A stretch of 64,000 nucleotides of DNA, taken from contig NC_020520.1 of NCBI RefSeq assembly GCF_000348785.1, positions 1,364,001 through 1,428,000 of the forward strand, written 5' to 3'. Position numbers and translations under genes: made by a program. The notes below the pieces were generated by a model that worked only from the letters and a program-made list of their open reading frames with translations, ran no database searches and was not told the DNA's origin. This DNA is from Ilumatobacter coccineus YM16-304 (GTDB lineage Bacteria; Actinomycetota; Acidimicrobiia; Acidimicrobiales; Ilumatobacteraceae). Positions 43,026 to 62,047 of the stretch are shown here, in pieces. Positions within the stretch are counted from its first letter, which is position 1; each line of letters begins with the position of its first letter.

Positions 43026-44879
<1,854 letters not shown>

Positions 44880-44880
<1 letters not shown>

Positions 44881-44918
44881 TACATAAGGAGAAGCAGCGT
44901 CGGTGCGAGATCGATCAC
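44880..44918 (-). CDS. leuA leader peptide (12 residues, four consecutive Leu)
   Basis: GTG 44918 opens a 13-codon frame ending in TAG (44882-44880): M-I-D-L-A-P-T-L-L-L-L-M. The four consecutive leucine codons (CTG CTT CTC CTT) end two codons before the stop, directly upstream of the leader hairpin. CTT is a codon rarely used in this GC-rich DNA. A TACCCT hexamer 7 nt before the GTG implies a leaderless start. This is the classic arrangement for sensing charged tRNA-Leu by ribosome stalling. Confidence 0.8.
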
Positions 44919-45044: not shown

Positions 45045-48000
45045 ATGATGTCTGAACGTCGCGCCCGTCATCGTCTCGGCCGGGTGGCCGGGGCGTTCCT
45101 GCTCACGTTGACGATGCTGCAGGTGGGGGTCGATGGCGGGTTCAGAGGAAGTGACGCCGACGCGGCGTTGATCCAGAGCTTCACCCCGCCGGCGTACACG
45201 ACCAACACGACGGGTGCGATCGACATCATCGGCAACGGGCTGATGACCTGTGGCACCAGCACCAACTGCATCAACACCCTCAACGGTACGCGCAACAGCG
45301 GCAACGGATCGTTCACCATGATCGACCTCGACGCCGACGACGGTGTGCTCACCGCAGCGCAGTCCGGACAGACCACGAACTCGTCGATGGCCGTCTACGC
45401 GCCCCCGGCCGGCAGCACCGTGCTCTACGCCAGTCTCCACTGGAGTGCGAACTCCAACAGTTCGGCGCGCAACCGGCTCAGTCTGTTGCCACCCGGTGCG
45501 ACGAATTATCAGACGATCACGGGCACCGTGGCCAACCTCGGCAGCCTGTACCAGACCTCGGCCGACATCACCTCGATCGTGCAAGCGGCCGGACCGGGCG
45601 ACTACTGGGCCGGCAACATCCAGCGAACGCAGGGCGGTGGACAGTACGCCGGCTGGTCGATGGTCGTCGTCTACGAGAACGGTGGGTTGCCGGTGCGCAA
45701 CCTCACCGTGTTCGACGGCTTCGGGCGTGTCACCAGTCAGACCAACGACAACGTGCTCGACGTGCCGATCAGCGGGTTCCTCACGCCGCCGCTCGGTGCC
45801 GTCAACGCCGAGATCGGCATCGTCGCGTACGAAGGCGACCGCAACATCACCGGCGACCAGGTGCTCATCGACACCAACCCCGGCCCGGTCACCACGTTCG
45901 CCAACCTGACCGACGCGTCGAACCCGACGACGAACTTCGGCAACGGCACCATCACCGATGCCGGCATTCCCACCGCCACCGGCCTCCCGGTCGACGTCAA
46001 CAACCTCAACGTCGACATCGACGAGTTCGCCACGGTCAACACCCTCGCGAATTCGCAGACCGACACGACCATCCGCTTCCAGACGGTCGGCGACTGGTGG
46101 TACCCCGGTGTGCTCACCACCGCGATCGACCTGTTCGTCCCACAGTTCCCCGAGGTCAACAAGACGGTCGTCGACCTCAACGGCGGCGACGCGGTGCCGG
46201 GCGACGTGCTCGAGTACGACGTCGTGTTCGAGAACACCGGCAACGACTTCGCCGACAACAGCGTCGTCAGCGATGTCATACCGGCCGGCACCACCTACGT
46301 GCCCGGCTCGATCCAGATCGGTGGCGTGGCCAAGTCCGACACGCCGGGCAACGACGAAGCCGAGTTCACCGGCTCCGAGGTCGTCGCCCGCGTCGGAACC
46401 GGCGCCACTCCGCTCTTCGGTGGAACGATCGCTCCGGGCGACTCGGTCGAGGTCTCGTTCCAGGTCACGATCGACGACGCCGCATCGGGGACCACGATCG
46501 AGAACGTGGCGACGCTCGACTATCGGGCTCGCACGATCGGGCAGGACTTCCAGTTCGACAGCAACCAGGTCGACACGCCGGTGCCGCCGCGGGCGCGGCT
46601 CAGCGTGACGAAGTCGGGGTCACCCGACCCCGTCGTCGCCGGTGAGAACGTCACCTGGACGATCGAGGTGGCCAACGCGGGCCCGAACACGGCCACCGGC
46701 GTCACCCTCGACGACGTGCTCGTCGGGAACACGTTCGTCTCGGTCAGCGGCGCGACCTGCGCCGGGGCGAGCGCAGGCGACACCACGCTCGGTTGCACAC
46801 TCGCCGACATCCCGGCGGGCTCGAGCAGCACGGTCACGCTCGTGGCTGCGACCGACCCGGCGCTCGCTCCCGGTTCGAGCGCGTCCGACACCGTCACGGT
46901 CGACGCCGCGCAGGACGACGACGATCTCAGCGACAACTCGGCGTCGGCACAGGTCGCCATCGACACCGAAGCCGACCTCACGATCGTCAAGGCCGACGTC
47001 GCCGACCCGGTCGCAGCTGGTGCAACCGTCGACTACACGTTGACGGTCACGAACGCCGGCCCGTCCGATGCCGCCGACGTCGTGATCTCCGACCAGACCG
47101 ACGGCCAGTTCGCGGTCACCTCGGTGTCGTTGGCCGGGGGCGTTGCCGGCACCTGCTCGGTCGCCACGCGATCGTGTGCACTCGACGACCCGCTCGCTCC
47201 CGGCGACTCGGTCACGATGAACGTGTCGGCCACCGTCGACGGTGACGCCTCCGCCACGATCGAGAACCGCGGCACGGTCACCTCGTCGACCACCGACCCG
47301 ACCCCCGGCGACAACACCGACCTCGAAACGACCACCGTCACCCCGGTCGCCGACGTCTCGGTGGTCAAGACGACCGTCGACGCGCCGGTCGTCGCCGGTG
47401 AACAGGTGACCTACAGCATCGTCGTGTCGAACGCCGGGCCGTCGGCAGCCGCAAACGTCACGTTGTCCGACCCGCTCCCGGCCGGCCTCAGCTTCGTCAG
47501 TGCCGCCACCACCCAGGGGGCGTGTCCCGGTACCGGGCCGGTCACCTGCAACTTCGGGTCGATCGGCGCCGGCGGCTCCGTCACGGTGACCGTCGTCGCC
47601 GACGTGGCCGACACCGCGACCGGTGCAGCACTCGCCAACACCGCAACGGTTGCGAGCCCGACCGACACGACGCCTGGCAACAACGAGAGCACCGCCAACG
47701 ACACCGTGCTCAACTCGGCCGACCTCCGCCTCAACAAGGAGATCGACGAGTCGACGCTGGCGGCAGGCGCGGCGTACACGTACACGCTCACGACCATCAA
47801 CGACGGCCCGTCCGAGACCAGCGGCACGGTCACCGTCACCGACACGATCCCGGTGGTCCTCGGCACACCGACTGCAGCAGCAGGCAGCGGTTGGACGTGC
47901 AACATCTCCGGGCAGGACGTCACCTGCACCCGCACCACGCCGATCCCGGTCGGCGGGACCGCGCCGCTCACGATCTCCGGTACAGCGCCGGCCGGCTCGC

Positions 48001-51000
48001 CTCCCGGACTCGCGGTCAACGATGCGTCGGTCTCGTACCCGACCGACCCCGACCCGGCGAACAACGACGCCGACGCCACCACCGAACTCGCACTCGAAGC
48101 CGACGTGCGCATCGACAAGGAGTGGACCACCGCCACGGCGACAGCCGGCGGCCCAGCGACCTTCACCCTCGTCGTCACCAACTCCGGCCCGTCGATCGCA
48201 CCCGACGTCAGCATCACCGACGTCCTGCCGGGCGGGATGACCGTGACGGACGCATCCGGCACCGGGGTCTCCTGCAACCCACCGGGCACCGGTTCGGTGT
48301 CGTGTTCCGCCGATCTTCCGATGGCCCCCGGCGCCTCGCTCACGATCACCGTCGACGTCGACGTGCCCGCCGATCTCGCTGCGGGGCAACTCAACAACAC
48401 CGCGACCGTGGCGAGCACCGCCAACGACCGCAACCCGTCGAACAACACCGACGTCGATGGCATCGACATCGTCCGTCTCGCCGACCTCGGGGTCACCAAG
48501 GTCGCCACCGACACGTCGCCGGTTGCCGGCGAGAGCGTCGAGTTCACCGTGGTCGTCACCAACGACGGTCCCTCGACCGCCAACGCCACGTTCGTCGGCG
48601 ACGCGCTGCCGGTCGGCATGACGTTGAGCACGTTCCCGAGCCCGCTGTGTTCCGACAACGCCGGGTCGCTCTCGTGCGACCTGGGGGTCGTGCAGCCGGG
48701 CGCCGCGAACGCTGTCACCATCGTCTACACCGCCGTGATCGACCCGAGCGTCGCCGACGGCACTCCGCTGACCAACACGGCGACCGCCTCGTCGCCCGAC
48801 CCCGACCCCACGCCGGCGACCGTCGACGAAGTCGTCACGGTGGCCGCCGAGGCCGACCTGATCGTCACGAAGACGGCGTCGGCCGATCCGGCCACGCCCG
48901 GCGGCACCCTCACCTACACGATCACGGTCGACAACGACGGGCCGTCCGACGCTCAGGGCGTCACGATTGCCGACCCGCCGCCTGTCGGGTTCACCCCGAC
49001 CTCGGCGGCCTCGACGATCGGCTCCTGCGACCTCACCGTCGACTGCACGATCGGCACGCTCGAAGCCGGCGCCACCGCGGTCATCACGATCACCGGCGAC
49101 GTGGCCTCCGGCATCACGGGCAACCTCACCAACACCACCGGCGCCGTCGCGTCGACCACCACGTTGATCAACACTGGCGACGACGTCGGCACGGTCACCG
49201 TCGCCACCGCGCCCGCTGCCGACCTGCAGATCTCGAAGTCGGCGAGCCCCACGACGATCGCCGCAGGTGGCGGCAACGTCACCTTCGTGGTCGCCGTGTC
49301 GAACAACGGGCCCTCCGATGCGATGTCGACGGTGGTCACCGACTCGCTGCCCGCCGGCTTCGTCGTCGACTCGGTCACGCCGAGCCAGGGTTCGTGCTCG
49401 TCCGACACGAGTTGTGAGCTCGGCACCGTCGTGGCGGGTGCCGCCCCGGCCACCATCACCTATGTCGGTTACTTCCCGAGCACCGCCGCGGCGGGCACGG
49501 TCACGAACGAAGCGACCGTGACCTCGCCGACCGATCCGGGCGGGCCGAGTGTCGCCACCGCCGACGTCGCGATCACCACGTCGGCCGACGTGTCGGTGGC
49601 CAAGTCCGGACCCGTCACCGTCAATGCGGGTGACGCGGTGCAGTACAACATCGCCGTCCAGAACGCCGGCCCGTCGGTCGCCGAAGCGGTGACGCTCACC
49701 GACGTGCTCGACGCAGCACAACTCGACGCCGCCAACGCCACGGTCACGCCGTCGCCGGCCTGTGCCAACAACAGCGGCACGATCGACTGCTCCTTCGGCG
49801 ATCTCCCCGTCGGTGCGTTGATCACCGTCGTCGTCCAGGTCGACGCCCTGCCCGACGCGACGGTCGGCGCGGCCGCCTTGTCGAACACCGCCACGATCGA
49901 CTCCGCCACCGCCGACCCGACTCCGGCCAACGACACGTCGTCGGCATCGACCGACGTGACTCGTGAGAGCGACGTCGCAGTGGTCAAATCCGGACCCACC
50001 GGCTTCGTCGCCGGCGAGACCGGCACGTACACCCTCTCGATCACCAACAACGGTCCGTCAGATGCCGTCGCCACCGACGTCGACGACGTCGCCCCCGCCG
50101 GGGTGACGTTCGGAGCGGTCGCAGGCACCGCCGGCTGCGTCGCACTGCCGTGCTCGATCGCGTCGATCGCGGCGGGTGACACCGTCACGGTCACGATCGA
50201 CGCGACCGTCGGCGCCGACAGCGACATCGCGTCGATCGAGAACACCGCAACGGTCTCGAACGCCGACGACAAGACCCCGGGCAACGACTCCTCGACGATC
50301 ACCACGCCGGTCACCCGTGACGCCGACATGCGGATCGTGTCGAAGGACTCGGCTCCCGACCCGGTGTCGGCCGGAGCGACGATCACCTACACGATCGTCG
50401 TGGCCAACGACGGCCCCTCCACCGCCCGCAACGCCGAGTTGACCGACACCGTTCCGGTCAACACCACGCTGGTGCCGAGTTCGCTGCCGCTCGGATGTTC
50501 GTTCACCGGCGTCGCCGCCGGCGAGACCATCACCTGCGATCTCGGACTCATGACCGCGGGACAGAACGAGACGATCTCGTTCGACGTCATCGTCGACCCG
50601 GCCACCCCCGATGGCACCGTCATCGAGAACACGGCGACGGCGGGAAGCGACACGCCCGACGGCACGCCGGGCAACGACAGCAACCCGCCCGAGACGACGC
50701 TGGTCGCCGTGGTCGCCGACGTCGGCATCACCAAGACGGCCGATCTCGCCACCGCCGTGCCCGGTGAGCCGCTGACCTACACGCTCACCGTCGTCAACGC
50801 CGGCCCGTCGTCGGCGTCCACCGTCGTGATCGACGACGACATCTCCTCCATCTTCGAGCCCGGGTCCGTGTCGACCGCGCTCGTGGGTGCACCCGGCGGC
50901 GTGGCCTGTGATGCCACCGTCAACTGCACGCTCGCCGACTTCCCGGTGGGCACCTTCGACGTCGAGATCACCGGCACCGTCCTCGCCGACGCCACCGCCG

Positions 51001-54000
51001 ACCTCGCCAACTCGGCCACCATCAGCACCACGTCGAACCAGGGCGCCGACGTGCTGGGCAACAGCGACGACCTCGACACGCCGGTCGCCCCGTCGGCCGA
51101 CCTCTCGATCGCCAAGTCGGCCAGCCCCGACCCGGTCGAGCCCGGCGAGCCGATCACGTACACGATCACCGTCAGCAACGCCGGACCGTCCGACGCCGTC
51201 AACGTCGAGGTCACCGATCTCGTCCCGGCCGAACTCACGATCGACGAAGTGCGCCCGCTCGCGCAGTGCAACCAGGCGACGGCGGTGTGCCTCGTCCCGG
51301 CCATCGCTGCCGGTGGCAGCGCCACGATCGAGATCGACGGCACGGTTGCCACGTCCGCTGTCGACACGATCGAGAACACGGCGACCATCACCGCCACCGA
51401 CACCCCCGACCCCGTCGCCGGCAACGACTCGACGACGATCGAGACCGACGTCGTCCCCGAAGCCGACATCCAGGTCACCAAGACCACCATCACCGACCCG
51501 GTCGTCGCCGGCACGACCGTGCGCTACGCCGTCGTGATCGTCAACAACGGCCCGGCCCCCGCCGAGAACGTCGACGTCGTCGACCTCCTTCCGGCCAACG
51601 CCACGTTCGTCAACGCGAGCACTCCGGTCGGCACCTGCACCAAGACCGGACCGGCACTCGGCGGCACGCTCACCTGTGAACTGGGCACGCTCGGCGCGAC
51701 CACCAGCATCCAGATCGACGTCGACGTCATCGTCGAGCCCGACGCCTCGGGCACCCTCGACAACTCGGTCACGGCCACGAGCACGACCGATGATCCCGAC
51801 GCCACGAACAACGACGCCACCAATCCGAACGGCGCCACCTCCGACCCGATGGTCACCGCCCCCGACCTGCGCGTGCAGAAGTCGCTCGTCTCGGCCGATC
51901 CGGCCGATCCCGATCTCGTCGCCGGTGAACCGTTCGAGTACCTGATCGAGATCTTCAACGACGGCCCGTCGACGGCAGTCGCCGACATCACACTCGCCGA
52001 CACGCTGCCACCCGAGGTGAGCGATGCCGTGCCCGCCGAAGTCACCCCGCGCGTCGTGACGCTGAGCGGCATCGCGAATCCGGCCGACTGCACCTACGAC
52101 GACGCCACGAACCAGATCGACTGCACCTTCTCCGACGATCTGGCCGTGGGTGACTCGATCCAACTCACGGTGAGCGGGTTCATCCGCACCGATGCGCTGA
52201 TCGGCGTCGCCGACAACACCGCCACGGTCACGACCACCGACGCCGATCCGAACCCGGCCAACAGCTCGGGCACTGCCGAGGCCACGCTCGTCACCAACGC
52301 CGACCTGCAGGTCGCGAAGTCGTTCGCCGACTCCAGCGTCATCGCCGGGCAAGACACCACGTTCACGATCTCGGTCACCAACAACGGCCCGTCCGACGCC
52401 GCCGACGTCGAGTTGACCGACGCACTCCCGGCGGGCTTCACCGTGCTCTCGTTGGCGAACGCCACCGGAGGTCTGTGCTCCAACACCGCAACCACCGTGA
52501 CCTGTTCGAACACCTCGCTGCCGGTGGGCGCCACCATCTCGGTCGACGTCACCGCCCTCGTCGACGCGAGCCAACCGGCGAACCCCGTCAACAACACCGC
52601 CGGCGTCACGTCGACCACCGATGATCGCAACCCGTCGAACAACACCTCCACCGACGGGATCACGGTGACCCGGCTCGCCGACCTCACGATCGCCAAGACC
52701 TCGTCGTCGCCGACGGTCGTCGCCGGCAACCAGATCACCTACACCCTCACCGTCGGCAACACCGGCCCATCGTCGGCCGAAGCCACCGTCGTCGGTGACC
52801 CGCTCGACCCCGCGCTCACCATCGTCGAGCCGTCGATCACCACCACCCAGGGCACCTGTACGGCGCCCGGCAACGTGCTCACGTGCGACCTCGGCGAGAT
52901 CCTGCCCGGCGCCGCTCCGGTGCAGATCGAGTACACGGTCACCTTCGACCCGGCGATCGTCGACGGAACCACGATCAACAACGCAGCGCAGGCCGATTCG
53001 ATCACCCCGCTCACCGGCGGCCCGGCCACCGCCGACACCGACGTCGACGTCGTCCGCACCGCCGACGTCGAGCTGGTGTCGAAGACGGTCACCCCCGACC
53101 CGGTCATTGCCGGTGAAACGGTCGAATACACCATCACCGCACGCAACAACGGCCCGTCGATCTCGACGAACACCACGGTGATCGACGAGCTCCCGGCCGG
53201 GCTGACCCTCGAGGCGCCGTTGCCCGCCGGATGCAGCGACGTGGCCGGTGACCTGTCGTGTGACCTCGGCACGCTGACCGTCGGCCAGGTCGAGACCATC
53301 ACGTTCACCGCGCGAGTCGATGCCGACGAACCCGACGGATCGGCGATCACCAACGATGCGTCGATCAGCGCAACCGAGCCCGACCCGAACGCCGGCAACG
53401 ACACGGCGTCGGTGCCGGTCACCGTCGACACGGTCGCCGCCCTCTCCATCACCAAGGTCGCTGGCCCCGACCCGGCGGTGCCGGGCGAGTCGCTGACGTA
53501 CACGATCACCGTCACCAACGACGGACCATCCGACGCCGCCTCCGTCGTCGTCGACGACACGACGCTCTCGATGTTCCAGGCCGGCACCATCTCGTCCTCG
53601 GCGAGCCAGGGGAACTGCGACCTCACCGTGTCGTGTGCCGTCGGCACGGTCGCACCGGGTGCCGCCAACGCGGTGACCGTCACCATCACCGGCACGGTGG
53701 CCGCCGATCTCACCACCGACATCTCCAACACGGCTGGCGTGACCTCGCCGACCGACCCGACACCCGACGAGGTCACGATCATCACGCCGGTCGCTCCGGT
53801 CACCGACCTCTCGATCACCAAGACGCTCGACACCAGCCCGCTCGTTCCCGGCGGCCCGGTGCAGTACACGATCACCGTCACCAACCCGGGGCCGTCCGAC
53901 GCCCAGTCGGTCGCCGTCGTCGACTCGATCGACCCTGCGGTCACCGGCCTCCTGGTCGATCAGGCGCAGTGTCAGTTCACCGGGCAAGACCTCGCCTGTG

Positions 54001-57000
54001 CCGTCGGCACGTTGCCGCCCGGCGACTTCGTCATCGTCGTCACCGGCGTGCTCGACGAAGGGTTCACCGGCGACCTGGCCAACTCCGCAACGGTCACCAC
54101 GACGACCGATCAGGGTGCGAACACCAGCCCCGACACGGCATCGGTCGACGAGACGGCTGCTCCCGACGCCGACCTCGTCCTGACCAAGACCGCCGCTCCC
54201 GACCCCGTCATCGCCGGTGAACTCGTCACCTACACGATCACCGTGCGCAACGACGGGCCGTCGACCGCGATCGGCGTGCAGGTCGACGACGCATTGCCGG
54301 CCGGGCTCACCGTCGACGACGTCAGCTCGTCGCAGGGCGGTTGCACCAGCCTCCCGTGCGACCTCGGCGACCTGGTCGACGGCGCGTCCGCGACCGTCAC
54401 CGTCGTGGCGCAGGTCGACGCGGACGTGACCGATCTCGCCCCGAACAGTGCGACCACCTCGTCGACCACACCCGACTCCGACCTCTCGAACAACAACGAC
54501 ACCGCAGATCCGGTCGTCGACACGCTCGCCCGCCTGAGCACCACGAAAGAACTCTCCACTCCGACCGCTGTGCCCGGCACCCGAGTGTCGTGGACCATCA
54601 CGGTCGACAACGACGGACCCTCCGACGCGCTCGACGTGTCGGTGGCCGACACCGTGCCGGCAGTACTCACCGGCGTCACCGTCACATCGTCGCAAGGGGC
54701 CTGTTCGGCGTTCGACTGCCTACTCGGCACCGTCGAACCCGGCGGCTCCGCCACCATCACGATCGAGGGCGACCTGCCCGCCGACACGCCGGCCGGAACG
54801 CTCGACAACGTCGCGGTCACCACCTCGACGACGCCCGACGACGACCTCACCAACGACACCGGCACGGCCTCGAACCCGATCGTGCCGTCGGCCGACGTCA
54901 GCATCGAGAAGGTCGGCCCCACCTCTGACCTCGTGCCGGGTCAGCCCGCCACGTTCGTCGTGACCGTCACCAACGACGGACCGTCCGATGCGCAGAACGT
55001 CGAGTTCACCGACACGGTGCCCGCCTCGATCGACCCGGCCACGATCACCACCAACGTCACCAGCGGCGCCGCCACCTGTGATCCGGTGGCCGGCAGCCTC
55101 GTCACCTGCCGGCAAGCGACGCTGCTCGACGGCGACTCCTACGTCGTCGAGATCACCGGCACCGTGCTCGCCGACGTCACCGACGCCTCGGTCGACAACA
55201 CCGCCGTGGTCACCTCCGACACGCCCGACCCGGACGGGTCGGACAACTCCTCGACCTCGACCACCGACGTCACCGCGTCGGCCGACCTCAGCGTGACGAA
55301 GGCGCTCACGACCGGGTTCACCGAACCGATCGACCCGAGCGCTCCGATCAGCTACACGATCACCGTGGCCAACGCCGGCCCGTCCGACGCCCAGAACGTG
55401 GTGGTCGGCGACACGCTGCCCACCGAGATCACGCTCACTGCGATCTCGACCGCCGTGGTCGGCGCCACCTGCGACCAGGGTGCGGTCACCTGCACGTTCC
55501 CGACCGTCGCGGCCGGAACCTCCGTCGAGGTCACCGTCACCGGCACGGTCAGCGACCGGGCGCTCGGCTCGTTCGACAACGTCGCCACGGTTGCGAGCGA
55601 CACCACCGACCCCGACCCATCCGACAACACGGTCACCGAGACCACCGACGTCACCCCGTTCGCCGACCTCGGCGTCGCCAAGACGCTGCTCACGCCGGCC
55701 GCCGACGTGGTCGCCGGACAGCAGGTGCGCTACCAGCTGGTCGTCACCAACGACGGCCCCGCGCCCGCCACGCTCGTCGAGGTGCTCGACACCCTGCCGG
55801 CAGGCACCGTGTTCGTGTCGACCTCCACGCCCGTCGGCGCGTGCGTCCACGACGGCTCGGCCACCGGCGGCGTCGTCGACTGCGACCTCGGCACCCTGCC
55901 CGACCAGGCATCGGTGACGATCACGATCGACATCGACATCGTCGACGACACGTCTGGTCAACTCGCCAACTCGGCCTCGGTCAGCAGCCCGATCACCGAC
56001 CCGGTCGCCGCCAACGACACCAGCTCCACGAGCGACACGATCCGGATCGTCCCCGACCTCCAGATCACCAAGACGCTCGTGCAGAGTGAACTCGTCGCCG
56101 GTGATCCGTTCACGTACCAGATCGTCGTGAAGAACAACGGCCCGTCCGACGCACTCGCACAGATCGACATCGACGACGTGCTGCCGCCACAGGTCGACCA
56201 AGCGCTGCCGATCACGGCCGACTACGTCATCTCGTCGGGTGGCAGCGGGTCGTGCGCGGTCACGCCGGGGGCGCCGAGCGCGACCGTCGACTGTGACATC
56301 ACCGACGACCTCGCCGTGGGCGAGACGATCACCGTCACCGTCGCCGGCACCGTCGACTCGGGAGCCGCTGCATTCGATGACAACACGGCCACCGTCGCCA
56401 CCGGCGACGAAGACCCCGACCTCGCCAACAACAGCGCCACGGCCGAGAGCGACCTCGCGACCAACGCCGACCTGTCGCTCGTCAAGGTGTTCGACGACGA
56501 TTCGGTCGTCGCCGGCGACGACACCGTGTTCGACCTGATCGTCAGCAACGCCGGTCCGTCCGATGCGCTCGCCGTCAGCGTCACCGACGTGCTGCCGGCC
56601 GGATTCGAGATCGTGTCGGCGGTCAGCGCCGACGGCACGTGCGTCACCTCCACCACCAACGCCGCCGACGACACGACCACCTGCACCATGGGCACGATCG
56701 CCAACGGGGCGTCGGTCACCATCACCGTGACCGCAGACGTCGACCCGTCGCTCGGCGCCGGCCCGGTCACCAACACGGCCACGGTCACCTCGTCGACCCC
56801 CGACCGCAACCCGTCGAGCAACACCGCCACCGACCAGATCGCCGTCGAACGCTTCGCCACGCTCGACCTGGACAAGGTCGTCGTGTCGCCCACGCCGCCC
56901 GCCGACGTGGTCGCCGGTGAGGAGATCGACTACGAGATCACCGTCGACAACGCCGGCCCGTCCTCGGCCGAGGGTTCGGTCGTCGGCGACGCCCTCCCGG

Positions 57001-60000
57001 CCGGGGTGACGATCGACGTCGCCTCCATCACGGCGAGCCAGGGTTCGTGCACCACGCCGGGCGGCATCCTCACCTGCTCGTTCGGTGAGATCCTCCCCGG
57101 CGACGACGCCACCGTCACGTACACGGTCACCGTCGACGCCGGCTTCACCGGCACAACGGTCACGAACAACGCGTCGGCCGACTCGCCCACGCCGAACAAC
57201 GGTCCGGTCACCGACAGCGAAACCGTCGGGGTCGACACCGAAGCCGACCTCGAACTGGTGTCGAAGATCGCCGACCCGACCACCGCAGTGGCAGGCTCCG
57301 ACCTCGAGTACTCGATCCTCGTCCGCAACAACGGCCCGTCGGTGGCTCGTGACGTGCTGGTGTCCGACGACATCCCCACCGGCCTCACCGTCTTGGTGGC
57401 CTCCCTGCCCACCGGGTGCACGTTGGCTTCCGGCGACGTCGAGTGCGAACTCGGCGACCTGGCGCCCACCGCCGAGCGGACCATCACGTTCACCGTCACC
57501 GTCGACGCCGATCAACTCGGGCCGATCAACAACACGGCTGAGGTCTCGAGCAACACGCCCGAACCGGCGGTCGACCCGAGTCCGAACACCAACGGCGTCG
57601 TGACCCCGGTCGACACGTCGGCCGACCTCTCGGTCGTCAAGACGGCCGACCCGTCACCCGCCGTGCCCGGCCAACCGATCACCTACACCATCGTCGTCAC
57701 CAACGCCGGCCCGTCGGTCGCCCGTGCCGTCGAACTGACCGACGACGACGCGCCGAGCATCCTCACCGGCGCGTCGGGAACGTGGGTCAACGGCGCGGCC
57801 AGTGGCTCCTGCGACGCCACGATCAACTGCGCCATCGGCGATCTCCCCGTCGGTACGGCGACCATCACCATCACCGGAACCGTGCCCGCCGATCAGACCA
57901 CGACGCTCGTCAACTCGGCGACCGTCAGCACGACCACCGACGACCCCGACGCCACCAACGACACCGGCAGCGCCTTCACGCCGGTTGCCCCCGAGGCCGA
58001 CATCACGGTCACCAAGGTGATCGACACGACCCCGCTCGTCCCCGGTGAGCCGATGCAGTTCACGATCACCGTCACCAACAACGGGCCGTCCGACGCAGCG
58101 AACGTCCTGGTCAGCGACAACATCGACGCGTCGATGACCGGGTTGGCGACCACCGCACCCGACTGCTCGATCAGCGGCCAACTGCTCGGTTGCTCGATCG
58201 ACACACTGGCTCCCGGTGCGGGCAACGCGGTGTCGATCGTGGTCACCGGCGACCTGGCCTCGTCGTACACGGGCTCGTTCAGCAACGTCGTCAACGTGTC
58301 GACGTCGACGTCGCAAGGCCCCGACGCCGCTCCGAACACCGCCACCGCAACCGCCCCGGCCGAGCCCGACGCCGACCTGTCGAGCACCAAGGACGCGACG
58401 CCCGACCCGGTCATCGCCGGCGAGGTGGTCACGTACCTGATCACGGTCTCCAACGCAGGCCCGTCCGACGCGACCGGCGTGGTGGTCACCGACACGCTGC
58501 CCGCCGGCCTCACCGCCGTCAACGTGTTCTCGTCGCAGGGCGCGTGTTCGTCGCTTCCGTGCTCGCTGAACACGATCCCCGACGGCGGGTCGGCCACGGT
58601 CACCGTCGAGGCGCTCGTCGGCTCCGACCTGCTCGCCGTCGGCACCAACACCGCCGACGTCACCGCCGACACGCCCGACAGCACGCCCGGCAACAACGAA
58701 TCGACGGAGGACGTCGCGCTCGACACGCTCGCCCGTCTGACCACCGTGAAGGAACTCTCGACGCCGACCGCGGTGCCCGGTGGGCCGCTGCGCTGGACGA
58801 TCACCGTCACCAACGCCGGCCCGTCCGACGCCCGAGACGTGTCGGTCGCCGACACGGTCCCGGCAGCCGTCACCAACACCACGATCTCGTCGAGCCAGGG
58901 TGGTTGCACCGCCTTCTCCTGTCTCCTCGGGACGATCCCGGCAGGCGGGTCGGCCACGATCACGATCGACGCCGACCTCCCGGCCGACGTGACCGCCACG
59001 TCGATCTCGAACACGGCCACGACGACCTCGTCGACGCCCGACGACGACAACACCGACGACTCGTCCACCGCGACGAACCCGATCGCCCCGGCGGCCGATG
59101 TGCGCATCACCAAGGTCGGGCCGACCAGTGACGTCGTGGCCGGCACCGCCGTGTCGTGGACGCTCATCGTGGTCAACGACGGGCCGTCCGATGCTGCCGA
59201 CGTCATCGTCACCGACGACCTCCCGGCGGCGCTCGATCCGGCGTCGATCGTCATCGGCGACGGGGGAGCGACGTGCACCCTCACCGGGCTGTCGCTCTCG
59301 TGCGACCTGAGCACCATGGCCGACGGCGCCACCGCGACGATCACGATCGACGGCACGCTGCGCACCGACTTCACCGGTGCGTCCCTCGACAACGTCGCCA
59401 CCGTCGCCTCGAGCACGGCCGACCCCGACACCTCGAACAACTCCGACTCGGCCACCAACGACAACGCCCCGCTCGCCGACATCGTCGTCACCGGAACGGT
59501 CACCCCGACGAGCGTTCCGGCCGGGACCACGACCGGGTACGAGTTCGAGATCGTCAACAACGGTCCGTCCGACGCCGCCGACACCGTCGTCACCATCCCG
59601 ATCCCGGCGTCGATGACCATCGTCGGCACCCCGACCGTGGTCGGGTTCCCGGGGGCGACCGTCACGGTCGTCGACGGCGTCATCACCGTCGACATCGGTG
59701 ACCTTCCGCCGGGCACGCCGGTCACGATCACCTTCGACGGCGACGTCTCGATCGACCAGCCGGCCGGGCCGCTCCCGATCACCGCCACGGGCTCCACGGC
59801 CACCACGCAGAACGACACGAGCAACGACGCCGCAACGCTGTCGATCGACGTGATCAACGACGTCGACCTCTCGATCGTCAAGGAGGCGAGCGCCCAGGTC
59901 GTCGCATTCGGCGACGAGGTCACCTTCACGATCACGGTCACCAACGACGGTCGCACCCCGGCGATCGGCGCCACCGTCACCGACGACCTGCCCGCCGGCC

Positions 60001-60725
60001 TCGAAGCCACCGCGGCGTCGAGCACCGACGGTTCGTGCACAGTGTCGGCCGATGGATCGCAGGTGGTGTGTGAACCGCTGACGGTCGCGGCCGACGGCGG
60101 CACCGTCACGATCACGATCGTCGCCGACGCCACCGGCGACGGAACGGTCACGAACACGGCGACGCTCGAGTGCGAGTGCATCGTCGCCACCATCACCAGC
60201 GACCCTGCCGTGGTCGACGTCGACCGTCACGCCGACCTGGGCGTGACCAAGACCGTGTTCCGGGCCATCACCAAGCCGGGCTTCGCCGTGACCTACACGA
60301 TCACCGTCACCAACGACGGCCCCGACACGGCGATCGGAACCGTGTTGCGAGAGCAACTGCCCAACGGGCTCCGCTACGTCTCGTCGTCGCCGTCGGTCGG
60401 CACCTACGACCCGGGCACCGGTGTGTGGAACATCGGTGACCTCGCCGACGGTGCCACCGCCACGATGGATCTCCGGGTCGTCGTGCTGGTCGAGGGCAAC
60501 TTCATCAACGAGGTCACGGTGAGCTCCGACATCGAAGACCGCAGCCCCGACAACAACTCGGCCGAGGCAGTGCTGCTCGCGATCTCACCCGATCTGCCCC
60601 TCACGGGCACCTCCACCATCGAGCGGATCGTCCCGATCTCGATCGGAGCGCTCGTCGTCGGACTCGCTCTGCTGCTGGGTTCCCGTCGTCGCAGCCGTGG
60701 TGACGGTACGCTTGGCGCCACATGA
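45045..60725 (+). CDS. Giant LPXTG-anchored surface protein with ~38 DUF11 repeats
   Basis: One uninterrupted frame encodes 5226 residues from ATG 45045 (a GTG at 45027 is also possible). A basic n-region and hydrophobic core (VAGAFLLTLTMLQVGV) form a signal peptide, cleaved probably near ADAA. Residues ~30-369 form a distinct N-terminal domain. About 38 DUF11 repeats of ~110-140 residues follow (370 to ~5160), each with a D-L-x-x-x-K start, a central N-x-G-P-S and usually a close Cys pair. The end carries the sortase motif LPLTG (5184-5188), a membrane helix and an RRRSR tail. It is presumably a fibrous adhesin or stalk. No sortase gene is in the window. Confidence 0.93.
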   Translation: MMSERRARHRLGRVAGAFLLTLTMLQVGVDGGFRGSDADAALIQSFTPPAYTTNTTGAIDIIGNGLMTCGTSTNCINTLNGTRNSGNGSFTMIDLDADDGVLTAAQSGQTTNSSMAVYAPPAGSTVLYASLHWSANSNSSARNRLSLLPPGATNYQTITGTVANLGSLYQTSADITSIVQAAGPGDYWAGNIQRTQGGGQYAGWSMVVVYENGGLPVRNLTVFDGFGRVTSQTNDNVLDVPISGFLTPPLGAVNAEIGIVAYEGDRNITGDQVLIDTNPGPVTTFANLTDASNPTTNFGNGTITDAGIPTATGLPVDVNNLNVDIDEFATVNTLANSQTDTTIRFQTVGDWWYPGVLTTAIDLFVPQFPEVNKTVVDLNGGDAVPGDVLEYDVVFENTGNDFADNSVVSDVIPAGTTYVPGSIQIGGVAKSDTPGNDEAEFTGSEVVARVGTGATPLFGGTIAPGDSVEVSFQVTIDDAASGTTIENVATLDYRARTIGQDFQFDSNQVDTPVPPRARLSVTKSGSPDPVVAGENVTWTIEVANAGPNTATGVTLDDVLVGNTFVSVSGATCAGASAGDTTLGCTLADIPAGSSSTVTLVAATDPALAPGSSASDTVTVDAAQDDDDLSDNSASAQVAIDTEADLTIVKADVADPVAAGATVDYTLTVTNAGPSDAADVVISDQTDGQFAVTSVSLAGGVAGTCSVATRSCALDDPLAPGDSVTMNVSATVDGDASATIENRGTVTSSTTDPTPGDNTDLETTTVTPVADVSVVKTTVDAPVVAGEQVTYSIVVSNAGPSAAANVTLSDPLPAGLSFVSAATTQGACPGTGPVTCNFGSIGAGGSVTVTVVADVADTATGAALANTATVASPTDTTPGNNESTANDTVLNSADLRLNKEIDESTLAAGAAYTYTLTTINDGPSETSGTVTVTDTIPVVLGTPTAAAGSGWTCNISGQDVTCTRTTPIPVGGTAPLTISGTAPAGSPPGLAVNDASVSYPTDPDPANNDADATTELALEADVRIDKEWTTATATAGGPATFTLVVTNSGPSIAPDVSITDVLPGGMTVTDASGTGVSCNPPGTGSVSCSADLPMAPGASLTITVDVDVPADLAAGQLNNTATVASTANDRNPSNNTDVDGIDIVRLADLGVTKVATDTSPVAGESVEFTVVVTNDGPSTANATFVGDALPVGMTLSTFPSPLCSDNAGSLSCDLGVVQPGAANAVTIVYTAVIDPSVADGTPLTNTATASSPDPDPTPATVDEVVTVAAEADLIVTKTASADPATPGGTLTYTITVDNDGPSDAQGVTIADPPPVGFTPTSAASTIGSCDLTVDCTIGTLEAGATAVITITGDVASGITGNLTNTTGAVASTTTLINTGDDVGTVTVATAPAADLQISKSASPTTIAAGGGNVTFVVAVSNNGPSDAMSTVVTDSLPAGFVVDSVTPSQGSCSSDTSCELGTVVAGAAPATITYVGYFPSTAAAGTVTNEATVTSPTDPGGPSVATADVAITTSADVSVAKSGPVTVNAGDAVQYNIAVQNAGPSVAEAVTLTDVLDAAQLDAANATVTPSPACANNSGTIDCSFGDLPVGALITVVVQVDALPDATVGAAALSNTATIDSATADPTPANDTSSASTDVTRESDVAVVKSGPTGFVAGETGTYTLSITNNGPSDAVATDVDDVAPAGVTFGAVAGTAGCVALPCSIASIAAGDTVTVTIDATVGADSDIASIENTATVSNADDKTPGNDSSTITTPVTRDADMRIVSKDSAPDPVSAGATITYTIVVANDGPSTARNAELTDTVPVNTTLVPSSLPLGCSFTGVAAGETITCDLGLMTAGQNETISFDVIVDPATPDGTVIENTATAGSDTPDGTPGNDSNPPETTLVAVVADVGITKTADLATAVPGEPLTYTLTVVNAGPSSASTVVIDDDISSIFEPGSVSTALVGAPGGVACDATVNCTLADFPVGTFDVEITGTVLADATADLANSATISTTSNQGADVLGNSDDLDTPVAPSADLSIAKSASPDPVEPGEPITYTITVSNAGPSDAVNVEVTDLVPAELTIDEVRPLAQCNQATAVCLVPAIAAGGSATIEIDGTVATSAVDTIENTATITATDTPDPVAGNDSTTIETDVVPEADIQVTKTTITDPVVAGTTVRYAVVIVNNGPAPAENVDVVDLLPANATFVNASTPVGTCTKTGPALGGTLTCELGTLGATTSIQIDVDVIVEPDASGTLDNSVTATSTTDDPDATNNDATNPNGATSDPMVTAPDLRVQKSLVSADPADPDLVAGEPFEYLIEIFNDGPSTAVADITLADTLPPEVSDAVPAEVTPRVVTLSGIANPADCTYDDATNQIDCTFSDDLAVGDSIQLTVSGFIRTDALIGVADNTATVTTTDADPNPANSSGTAEATLVTNADLQVAKSFADSSVIAGQDTTFTISVTNNGPSDAADVELTDALPAGFTVLSLANATGGLCSNTATTVTCSNTSLPVGATISVDVTALVDASQPANPVNNTAGVTSTTDDRNPSNNTSTDGITVTRLADLTIAKTSSSPTVVAGNQITYTLTVGNTGPSSAEATVVGDPLDPALTIVEPSITTTQGTCTAPGNVLTCDLGEILPGAAPVQIEYTVTFDPAIVDGTTINNAAQADSITPLTGGPATADTDVDVVRTADVELVSKTVTPDPVIAGETVEYTITARNNGPSISTNTTVIDELPAGLTLEAPLPAGCSDVAGDLSCDLGTLTVGQVETITFTARVDADEPDGSAITNDASISATEPDPNAGNDTASVPVTVDTVAALSITKVAGPDPAVPGESLTYTITVTNDGPSDAASVVVDDTTLSMFQAGTISSSASQGNCDLTVSCAVGTVAPGAANAVTVTITGTVAADLTTDISNTAGVTSPTDPTPDEVTIITPVAPVTDLSITKTLDTSPLVPGGPVQYTITVTNPGPSDAQSVAVVDSIDPAVTGLLVDQAQCQFTGQDLACAVGTLPPGDFVIVVTGVLDEGFTGDLANSATVTTTTDQGANTSPDTASVDETAAPDADLVLTKTAAPDPVIAGELVTYTITVRNDGPSTAIGVQVDDALPAGLTVDDVSSSQGGCTSLPCDLGDLVDGASATVTVVAQVDADVTDLAPNSATTSSTTPDSDLSNNNDTADPVVDTLARLSTTKELSTPTAVPGTRVSWTITVDNDGPSDALDVSVADTVPAVLTGVTVTSSQGACSAFDCLLGTVEPGGSATITIEGDLPADTPAGTLDNVAVTTSTTPDDDLTNDTGTASNPIVPSADVSIEKVGPTSDLVPGQPATFVVTVTNDGPSDAQNVEFTDTVPASIDPATITTNVTSGAATCDPVAGSLVTCRQATLLDGDSYVVEITGTVLADVTDASVDNTAVVTSDTPDPDGSDNSSTSTTDVTASADLSVTKALTTGFTEPIDPSAPISYTITVANAGPSDAQNVVVGDTLPTEITLTAISTAVVGATCDQGAVTCTFPTVAAGTSVEVTVTGTVSDRALGSFDNVATVASDTTDPDPSDNTVTETTDVTPFADLGVAKTLLTPAADVVAGQQVRYQLVVTNDGPAPATLVEVLDTLPAGTVFVSTSTPVGACVHDGSATGGVVDCDLGTLPDQASVTITIDIDIVDDTSGQLANSASVSSPITDPVAANDTSSTSDTIRIVPDLQITKTLVQSELVAGDPFTYQIVVKNNGPSDALAQIDIDDVLPPQVDQALPITADYVISSGGSGSCAVTPGAPSATVDCDITDDLAVGETITVTVAGTVDSGAAAFDDNTATVATGDEDPDLANNSATAESDLATNADLSLVKVFDDDSVVAGDDTVFDLIVSNAGPSDALAVSVTDVLPAGFEIVSAVSADGTCVTSTTNAADDTTTCTMGTIANGASVTITVTADVDPSLGAGPVTNTATVTSSTPDRNPSSNTATDQIAVERFATLDLDKVVVSPTPPADVVAGEEIDYEITVDNAGPSSAEGSVVGDALPAGVTIDVASITASQGSCTTPGGILTCSFGEILPGDDATVTYTVTVDAGFTGTTVTNNASADSPTPNNGPVTDSETVGVDTEADLELVSKIADPTTAVAGSDLEYSILVRNNGPSVARDVLVSDDIPTGLTVLVASLPTGCTLASGDVECELGDLAPTAERTITFTVTVDADQLGPINNTAEVSSNTPEPAVDPSPNTNGVVTPVDTSADLSVVKTADPSPAVPGQPITYTIVVTNAGPSVARAVELTDDDAPSILTGASGTWVNGAASGSCDATINCAIGDLPVGTATITITGTVPADQTTTLVNSATVSTTTDDPDATNDTGSAFTPVAPEADITVTKVIDTTPLVPGEPMQFTITVTNNGPSDAANVLVSDNIDASMTGLATTAPDCSISGQLLGCSIDTLAPGAGNAVSIVVTGDLASSYTGSFSNVVNVSTSTSQGPDAAPNTATATAPAEPDADLSSTKDATPDPVIAGEVVTYLITVSNAGPSDATGVVVTDTLPAGLTAVNVFSSQGACSSLPCSLNTIPDGGSATVTVEALVGSDLLAVGTNTADVTADTPDSTPGNNESTEDVALDTLARLTTVKELSTPTAVPGGPLRWTITVTNAGPSDARDVSVADTVPAAVTNTTISSSQGGCTAFSCLLGTIPAGGSATITIDADLPADVTATSISNTATTTSSTPDDDNTDDSSTATNPIAPAADVRITKVGPTSDVVAGTAVSWTLIVVNDGPSDAADVIVTDDLPAALDPASIVIGDGGATCTLTGLSLSCDLSTMADGATATITIDGTLRTDFTGASLDNVATVASSTADPDTSNNSDSATNDNAPLADIVVTGTVTPTSVPAGTTTGYEFEIVNNGPSDAADTVVTIPIPASMTIVGTPTVVGFPGATVTVVDGVITVDIGDLPPGTPVTITFDGDVSIDQPAGPLPITATGSTATTQNDTSNDAATLSIDVINDVDLSIVKEASAQVVAFGDEVTFTITVTNDGRTPAIGATVTDDLPAGLEATAASSTDGSCTVSADGSQVVCEPLTVAADGGTVTITIVADATGDGTVTNTATLECECIVATITSDPAVVDVDRHADLGVTKTVFRAITKPGFAVTYTITVTNDGPDTAIGTVLREQLPNGLRYVSSSPSVGTYDPGTGVWNIGDLADGATATMDLRVVVLVEGNFINEVTVSSDIEDRSPDNNSAEAVLLAISPDLPLTGTSTIERIVPISIGALVVGLALLLGSRRRSRGDGTLGAT
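46152..60590 (+). repeat. Tandem DUF11 repeat array (about 38 units)
   Basis: I count 38 successive units by their opening (A-D-L/V-x-x-x-K) and central (N-x-G-P-S-x-A) signatures, starting near 46152 and ending before the LPXTG sequence. Unit length is about 330-430 bp. The units are divergent at the DNA level, so this is an old protein-level array rather than a fresh tandem expansion. Confidence 0.85.
51459..59858 (+). repeat. Two consecutive 11-unit super-repeats of 4200 bp each
   Basis: Units 15-25 (51459-55658) and 26-36 (55659-59858) match in order: for example 15/26 share STPVG-C, 17/28 share the D-R-N-P-S-N/S-N-T ending, 18/29 share G-x-I/V-L-T-C-x-x-G-E-I-L-P-G, and 23/34 share T-K/V-K-E-L-S-T-P-T-A-V-P-G. 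Both blocks are 1400 codons by my boundaries. Units 4-7 match 15-18 too, so a third, partly eroded block (47346-51458, 1371 codons) may precede them. Confidence 0.7.
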
Positions 60726-62047
60726 CACATGACAATTCCCGACGGGGAGCGCCCCGCCGTCGACGTACGCGACCTTCGGAGGCCAACGATCGCGACCACG
60801 TGAACACGTCGAACCTCACTTCCATCAACGCGCTTCCGGCAGTCGAAGCGCCGACGGGGTTCTTCGACCTCGGCGTTCCGGCCCGCATCGACGACGGGCT
60901 CGCCGCATGCGGCTTCGCACAACCGTTCAACATCCAGACCGAGGCGATTCCGGTCGCCATGCAGGGCAAAGACGTCTGCGGCCGCGCCAAGACCGGCTCG
61001 GGCAAGACGCTTGCGTTCGGCGTGCCGATGCTCGCCCGCATCACCGACGAAGCCAAGCCGATGCGCCCGCTCGGGCTCGTGCTCGTGCCGACGCGTGAGC
61101 TGGCCGTGCAGGTCGCCGAAGTGCTGCAACCCGTTGCCAACCATGCCGGCATGAAGGTGCTGCCCGTCTACGGCGGCGCCTCGCGTCACCATCAGGTCGA
61201 CGAGATGGCCAAGGGCGTCGAGATCGTCGTGGCCACCCCGCTGCGCCTCATCGACCTCATCAAGTCCGACGAGATCAACCTCGACGACATCCAGATCGTC
61301 ACCCTCGACGAGGCCGACCGCATGGCCGACGACGGCTTCACGCCCCAGGTCGAGTGGATCCTGCGCCACACCGGCAACCGCAACCAGACGATGCTGTTCT
61401 CGGCAACGCTCGACGGCGATGTCGGCCACCTCATCCGGGCGTATCAGACCGACCCCGAGACCGTGGCGATCGACGAAGCGACCGACACGGTCGGCAACAT
61501 GAGCCACCTGTTCCTCGGCATCCACCACATGGACCGTGACAAGGTCATCGGCTCGATCGCCAAGGGCATCCCGAAGATCATCGTGTTCTGCCAGACGAAA
61601 CGGCAGTGCGACCGGGCCACCGAGAAGCTGCAAGACCTCGGTCTCGACGCCATGGCCATCCACGGCGACCTCCAGCAGAAGACGCGTGAGCGTGTGATGC
61701 GGATGTTCGCCGAGAGCAAGCTGCAGATCCTGGTGGCCACCGACGTGGCCGCCCGCGGGATCGACATCGACGACATCGGTGCGGTCATCCACTACGAGCC
61801 GGCCAAGGACGTCAAGGACTACCTGCACCGCTCGGGCCGCACGGCTCGCGCCGGGCGCGACGGCTGGGCGATCACGTTCGCCGAGTACAACCAGACCACG
61901 CAGGTCCGCATCCTGCAGCGCATGCTCAGCATGGAGCCGAGCAAGCCGGTCGAAGTGTTCTCCAACGACCAACGCCTGCTCCGCCTCGAGGAGTTCGGCG
62001 ACGACGTCAAGACGTCGGCGCAGCACCCCAGCAACATGAAGGTCTGA
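60722..62047 (+). CDS. DEAD-box RNA helicase
   Basis: The protein has 441 residues. After a basic lead of ~30 residues come the Q motif (GFAQPFNIQTEAIP), Walker A AKTGSGKT, PTRELA, LDEADRM (DEAD), LFSATL (SAT), ATDVAARGIDI and HRSGRTARAG. It unwinds RNA duplexes, probably in ribosome assembly or mRNA turnover. ATG 60722 overlaps the stop of the giant surface-protein gene (ATGA); a GTG at codon 27 (NTSNLTSINA) is an alternative start that would avoid the overlap. Confidence 0.94.
   Translation: MTHDNSRRGAPRRRRTRPSEANDRDHVNTSNLTSINALPAVEAPTGFFDLGVPARIDDGLAACGFAQPFNIQTEAIPVAMQGKDVCGRAKTGSGKTLAFGVPMLARITDEAKPMRPLGLVLVPTRELAVQVAEVLQPVANHAGMKVLPVYGGASRHHQVDEMAKGVEIVVATPLRLIDLIKSDEINLDDIQIVTLDEADRMADDGFTPQVEWILRHTGNRNQTMLFSATLDGDVGHLIRAYQTDPETVAIDEATDTVGNMSHLFLGIHHMDRDKVIGSIAKGIPKIIVFCQTKRQCDRATEKLQDLGLDAMAIHGDLQQKTRERVMRMFAESKLQILVATDVAARGIDIDDIGAVIHYEPAKDVKDYLHRSGRTARAGRDGWAITFAEYNQTTQVRILQRMLSMEPSKPVEVFSNDQRLLRLEEFGDDVKTSAQHPSNMKV

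Follow-up and report, generated by a model that had tools for sequence, protein, structure and literature searches.

A 38-domain DUF11 surface protein of 5226 residues in Ilumatobacter coccineus, a probable sortase-anchored adhesin with predicted self-locked stalk domains

The genome of Ilumatobacter coccineus YM16-304 is a single contig of 4,830,181 bp, of which positions 1364001–1428000 form the window, i.e., the whole 64,000-nucleotide stretch of DNA analyzed here. An open frame on the forward strand of the window (45045–60725) translates into 5226 residues with no internal stop, as a sequence-only reading of the same DNA had claimed, and its third-position GC of 0.915 marks it as the coding frame. 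The ORF as listed begins at a GTG (45027); the ATG starts at 45045 and 45048 are favored over it because the N-terminus of a congener, MSRLRARTS, aligns with MSERRARH of the giant. On the opposite strand, a 1545-residue antisense frame (50058–54695) is probably a by-product of the high third-position GC. We confirm that the gene is intact and codes for an exported-type surface protein with a head, a stalk, and an anchor.

All parts of the protein are encoded on the forward strand. The translation begins with a predicted signal peptide, read by eye (residues 1–40, 45045–45164), with cleavage after ADA (SDADA, followed by A). A head of ~330 residues comes next (residues 41–366, 45165–46142), with two cysteines and no lysine, and is continued by a stalk of 38 tandem DUF11 (CLIPPER) domains, delineated by Pfam and alignment, with a mean spacing of 127 residues (46143–60584). 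Stalk domain 1 (46137–46577) is the longest and has no cysteine. Behind the stalk lie a sorting motif, LPLTG (residues 5184–5188, 60594–60608), and a hydrophobic segment with an Arg-rich tail (60609–60722; SRRRSR by eye), whose last residues are DGTLGAT. The TGA stop overlaps the ATG of a DEAD-box helicase (60722–62047, forward strand); the other neighbor, on the reverse strand, is leuA (isopropylmalate synthase; 43026–44849, with a conserved start near 44765).

The number of stalk domains is the same by three routes: Pfam PF01345 gave 38 matches in the frame in a genome-wide search, all above the curated cut-off, and both a segmentation and a separate profile of our own likewise count 38, bearing out the earlier figure of about 38 repeats. 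Repeats are a general risk in assembly and long antisense ORFs lie opposite the giant, either of which might point to an artefact of assembly or annotation, with the array length wrong or the frame untranslated. However, Tandem Repeats Finder returned no rows for the array, its direct-repeat families are mostly 60–75% identical in DNA (for the 20 of 43 families listed), and no exact direct repeat exceeds 26 nt, from which we conclude that the stalk domains are old. According to the accessible text of the strain’s genome paper (PMC3910706), the genome was finished from Sanger reads at 8.1x, assembled with Phrap from libraries of 1.5, 6, and 38 kb, the last in fosmids. Given these divergent repeats and long inserts, a collapsed array is very unlikely and was rejected; neither collapse nor expansion, which the sequence-only reading had named as fatal to its claim, is indicated. 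The third-position GC of the frame and the existence of relatives with 24 and 32 domains also speak against an artefact, to which we give almost no credence.

The array does retain a trace of how it grew. Domain pairs eleven apart have a mean amino acid identity of 0.436, against 0.384 for the next best lag (domain 1 left out) and 0.37 for adjacent domains, and 0.436 was not attained in any of 5000 permutations of the domain order, with lags of 1 to 19 considered. The lag-11 identity delimits two blocks, domains 14–24 (51081–55274) and 25–35 (55275–59459), whose corresponding domains are 0.45–0.69 identical. From the lag-11 signal and the permutations, we infer that the array was enlarged at least once, long ago, by joint copying of eleven domains.

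Although the mean column identity of the 38-domain alignment is only 32%, a few columns are almost invariant. Lys occurs at one column in 35 of 38 domains, Asp and Asn at one column each in 36, and Cys at each of two columns in 35. The strict Lys-Asp-Asn triad is complete in 33 domains, and in 35 when Glu may replace Asp, or Asp may replace Asn; three domains lack the aligned Lys, two of which have a Lys a few residues away. The best PDB match of the stalk profile is 9ifr (E = 1.3e-4), the crystal structure through which the DUF11 domain was solved and renamed CLIPPER by Costa et al. 2025 (PMC12617251), and the K, D, and N of the stalk align to its K, D, and N. Against the published residues, i.e., an isopeptide bond between Lys-715 and Asn-806 with Asp-748 as the putative catalytic residue, the stalk Lys and Asn coincide by our numbering, and the Asp is shifted by one residue. 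The accessible text of that study adds that the bond confers resistance to heat and protease, and that the bond residues are missing from some DUF11 domains. The NCBIfam model TIGR04226, an RrgB-D2-like isopeptide model, matches stalk domain 1 and two stretches in the C-terminal half.

The giant thus shares with the CLIPPER adhesin of Acinetobacter silvestris (B9T28_05395, 9IFR) its domain family, the triad, and a tandem stalk, but differs in several ways from what the accessible text of PMC12617251 describes. It has 38 domains in 5226 residues, its Cys pair is nearly universal whereas disulfides were counted in 29.7% of CLIPPER domains, and it carries a wall anchor while the crystallized protein is Gram-negative. 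Since the survey database, as given there, ends at 1280 residues, giants of this length fall outside it. Periscope proteins such as SasG and Sgo0707 are likewise single-chain surface rods with a head, but they are defined by highly identical repeats (PMC9704523, accessible text). The low identity of adjacent domains and the blank Tandem Repeats Finder result led us to reject that assignment.

The lysines of the giant are concentrated at the predicted cross-link. Only 42 occur in the whole protein, 37 of them 20–26 residues N-terminal of an N-x-G motif and five elsewhere, while the other ORFs of the window, an uncurated set picked by a GC filter, hold 183 lysines in 11436 residues (1.6%). Three large relatives have Lys at the site in nearly every domain, namely 27 of 27 (G112), 31 of 32 (G439), and 24 of 24 (G394), and these account for 27 of 28 (in 3652 residues), 31 of 46, and 24 of 42 of their lysines, respectively. 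The fraction is 10 of 17 in a Leifsonia homolog (L074) and merely 3–4 of 11–18 in three short-stalked proteins (L112–L114); other DUF11 domains of the same genome hold the Lys less often (four of six in L047, two of six in L053). Composition by itself does not account for the retention of Lys in the DUF11 stalk, since a second giant of the genome, built from SdrD_B repeats, has only nine lysines in 5235 residues.

That second giant (L046 3174–18878, reverse strand; ~3808–3824 kb of the genome) is an open frame with 23 + 15 matched SdrD_B stretches and ends in IPRAGA, a membrane segment, and RRRR. Two further long SdrD_B frames, of 3682 and 2574 residues, lie within ~90 kb of it.

The sequence-only reading called the C-terminus a sortase anchor, and motif, hydrophobic segment, and basic tail all agree; the score of the NCBIfam anchor model TIGR01167 on this tail, a detection aid rather than a defining property of LPXTG proteins, falls short (11.3 bits vs a cut-off of 15.9). 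At E <= 10, this model finds 22 places in the whole genome, 13 of them over the cut-off; LPxTG is present in 12 of the 13, and takes the form LPATG in eight. Lack of a sortase gene, the other finding that was to overturn the reading, is not what the genome shows: three PF04203 matches exceed the cut-off. One (L001, at 1071352 of the genome) scores 166.9 bits with the class E model, over its cut-off of 160, a second (L002) is class E-like at 101.1 bits, below that cut-off, and the third (L003) is weak (34.1). A sortase over the PF04203 cut-off is also present in all ten head-bearing genomes tested besides this one.

The suggested search for a class-matched sortase gave a divided answer. A class E gene exists, but the class E members studied prefer LAXTG and the giant has LPLTG, i.e., Pro rather than Ala at the second position. 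According to the accessible text of PMC5148588, the preference of Streptomyces class E sortases for LAXTG is attributed to Tyr229 of SrtE1, and SrtE1 can accept Ala or Pro at that position. Alignment to SrtE1 puts Tyr229 at the Y of GHY, with a fitting spacing to Ala249; at this site L001 has Phe and L002 has Trp. Head-bearing relatives differ in their anchors: LPATG in L070, LAFTG in L110 and L111, LVSTG in L074, and none in L076 and L112–L114, so that the anchor tail is missing from four of the eight with a complete C-terminus. In G394 and G439, the genomes of the LAFTG giants, one sortase apiece has Tyr at the site, and G131, whose protein has LPATG, has Phe; G050 has Phe and Trp, G112 Trp, and G420 and G280, with anchorless head proteins, Phe, while G354 has Tyr with the protein’s tail unseen. 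A counter-case is G019, where the site is Tyr in one sortase and a 2310-residue protein ends in LPFTG. In this comparison, which leaves out G258 and in which most genomes hold further sortases besides those compared, the residue at the Tyr229 site may track LAXTG versus LPXTG anchors, a suggestive pattern only. As a separate observation, the head-bearing proteins L112, L113, and L114, which come from three genomes in two families, have PNFTG or PSFTG as their very last residues, and no membrane segment follows in the three frames read.

The same data bear on whether the giant could be a subunit of a sortase-polymerized pilus. Such a role is hinted at by the NCBIfam name ‘isopeptide-forming domain-containing fimbrial protein’ and by the TIGR04226 matches described above. 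However, the two best sortases score 81.7 and 65.9 bits with the class C (pilus) sortase model, whose cut-off is 160, and the third is not listed; a scan of eight flanking ORFs found no pilin or sortase family, and a single chain already carries 38 domains. The pilus was rejected on the class C scores, and we regard it as highly improbable.

The giant occupies the slot between leuA and the helicase, which was compared across the genus. We sought the helicase in ten genomes, the present one included, and eight have it at E <= 1e-100; at this threshold, a match is absent from G121 and G050. In six congeners (G012, G034, G064, G076, G099, G110), leuA and the helicase are divergent neighbors with no gene between them, separated by 219–265 nt in the four in which both starts are readable. 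The G050 contig has leuA beside a head 76% identical to that of the giant. The G088 contig begins inside a different protein (L129 1–455), with IPRTG, a membrane segment, an Arg run, and DGTLAAT, and the stop of this protein overlaps the helicase ATG as the giant’s does. Hence, a giant gene sits between the two housekeeping genes in certain congeners, and others have a clean empty site; as the comparison was made without a genus tree, gain and loss both fit.

The right flank resembles the G034 and G012 empty sites from ~60700–60703 onward, and the segment GGTACGCT...AC (60703–60721, forward strand), kept in congeners upstream of the helicase, is probably its old promoter, judging by this flank conservation. 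Because the empty sites and G088 share it, the last residues of the giant, DGTLGAT, appear to be read from pre-helicase sequence, and the overlap of the two genes therefore need not mean an operon. Elsewhere on the reverse strand, the region upstream of leuA (~44815–44900) holds a conserved leader with a run of leucine codons (LLLLM, then a stop) followed by G+C-rich inverted repeats; read by eye, it looks like a leucine attenuator, and Rfam at gathering scores matched nothing in the window, this leader included. Farther away, 39718–42378 (reverse strand) encodes a likely lipoprotein of 887 residues with a match to the pyruvate phosphate dikinase N-domain that barely exceeds the cut-off (31.2 vs 27 bits).

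Against Pfam and NCBIfam, the head of the giant matches no family at E <= 1, although DUF3344 (PF11824) matches 10 of the 21 aligned heads at this threshold (best 1.4e-8). Its cysteines, 69 and 75, are invariant in all 21. An AlphaFold2 model of residues 41–372 from the 21-row alignment reached a mean pLDDT of 91.1 and a pTM of 0.91, whereas an earlier run of the head with domain 1 from four rows was poor (pLDDT 55.1). One PDB profile search with the head gave no hits and another only hits at E 1.1–1.5; similarly, the best 50 Foldseek matches of the model in the PDB all have TM <= 0.25 by query length. Matches in BFVD, to phage minor tail proteins, have TM scores of at most 0.32 by query length and 0.43 by target length. 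VIA-align placed jelly-roll matches mostly on the C-terminal half of the model, with Z of 8.2 for GH86 and Kex2, 7.9 for the furin P domain, and 7.2 for PNGase F, scores that its own note describes as usual when a model has no clear match. At that level, the C-terminal half of the modeled head looks like a jelly roll.

The head family extends well beyond the genus. Ten of 150 family genomes, this one included, have head matches; these comprise stalked relatives in G050, G112, and G131, and at least some of the others are sigma fusions. In the class, 65 of 395 genomes match a head-plus-first-domain model, many solely at its stalk-like end, and six besides the present one match nearly its full length. 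A plasmid search with the head gave matches only below 60% identity, and a DUF11 protein on the Thermus thermophilus HB8 plasmid NC_006462.1, in another phylum, shows 38.4% identity in the head, with 99% of the query covered. Among the proteins examined, the stalks that carry this head family range from 3 to 38 domains: three in L070, four in L076, five in L112–L114, 11 in L074, 24 in L111, 32 in L110, and 38 in the giant, with 13 (L109), 27 (L068), and one (L072) counted in proteins that run off a contig edge.

Long proteins with a zinc-finger anti-sigma domain also bear a head-like fold, at 25–32% identity, as their outer portion; in part of the genomes, the chain includes an ECF sigma factor as well. 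The own-genome example (L140 1606–4149; genome 552105–554648) has the zinc finger and only a sub-threshold DUF3344 match; G198 (L141 1657–4203) and Demequina (L078 7913–10924) have the chain with the sigma factor, and in the head-like protein of G064 (L142 673–3321), no family was recognized. The head might accordingly be a module for ligand recognition with two uses, one on surface stalks and the other on the outside of membrane-bound ECF sigma factors made as a single chain, an idea that we consider a long shot.

A long stalk of repeated domains and a wall anchor, as in fibrillar adhesins, are both present in the giant; an N-terminal adhesive domain of a known family was not found by family and fold searches. 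The protein could instead be a passive structural or steric layer of the wall, i.e., a spacer, shield, or cell-to-cell matrix, with a head that is no adhesin. In favor of such a layer are a head family of no known function and a strongly acidic stalk (net charge −528); furthermore, the genome encodes another giant with a different type of fold, suggestive of a dense coat. Among the N-terminal clusters in a survey of fibrillar adhesins from 2022 (PMC9210967, accessible text), one that overlaps DUF3344 is classed as of ambiguous function. Retention of the head across stalks of 3 to 38 domains is not what one expects of a spacer, however, and we judge a passive layer unlikely, though worth keeping in mind.

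We consider it likely that the giant is a sortase-anchored fibrillar adhesin with a rod of self-locked domains, in agreement with the earlier view of a DUF11-stalked surface protein of the sortase-anchored type. The protein would be exported, and a sortase would join its C-terminus to the cell wall at LPLTG. An Ig-like domain measures ~4–5 nm, and 38 of them would form a rod of very roughly 150–190 nm that holds the head off the cell. Most rod domains would lock themselves through an Asp-assisted Lys-Asn isopeptide bond and a disulfide, because of which the rod should resist pulling and proteolysis, and the head would bind a surface or another cell. Bond formation, rod shape, wall anchoring, and head binding are all predictions from sequence.

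Much of this has precedents. The domain, its isopeptide bond, and the anchor type are already known, and DUF11-containing clusters were reported among bacterial proteins of >5000 residues (PMC11573180, accessible text). Among the papers searched, none joins Ilumatobacter with DUF11. The earlier remark that sortase-anchored giants are not described in this lineage is weakened by the genome paper, whose accessible text (PMC3910706) reports 13 ORFs with LPXTG in the strain and proposes that it may adhere to hosts, sponges among them, but does not mention giants. The present analysis adds the triad of the predicted cross-link, the distribution of lysines, the duplicated block of domains, one head borne on stalks of varied length, and the comparison of the locus across the genus.

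Lysine placement might serve to tell from sequence alone which stalk domains are cross-linked; in the purest cases, Lys is almost absent save at the cross-link. This marine actinobacterium has two frames of >5000 residues, of which one would be covalently locked and the other is nearly Lys-free, and two modes of rod construction could be compared directly in them. If the head does serve both stalks and sigma factors, a cell could hold and, more speculatively, sense the same ligand with one fold, coupling contact to transcription. Finally, related heads on rods of 3, 4, 5, 11, 24, 32, and 38 domains offer a natural series for asking why bacteria vary their reach.
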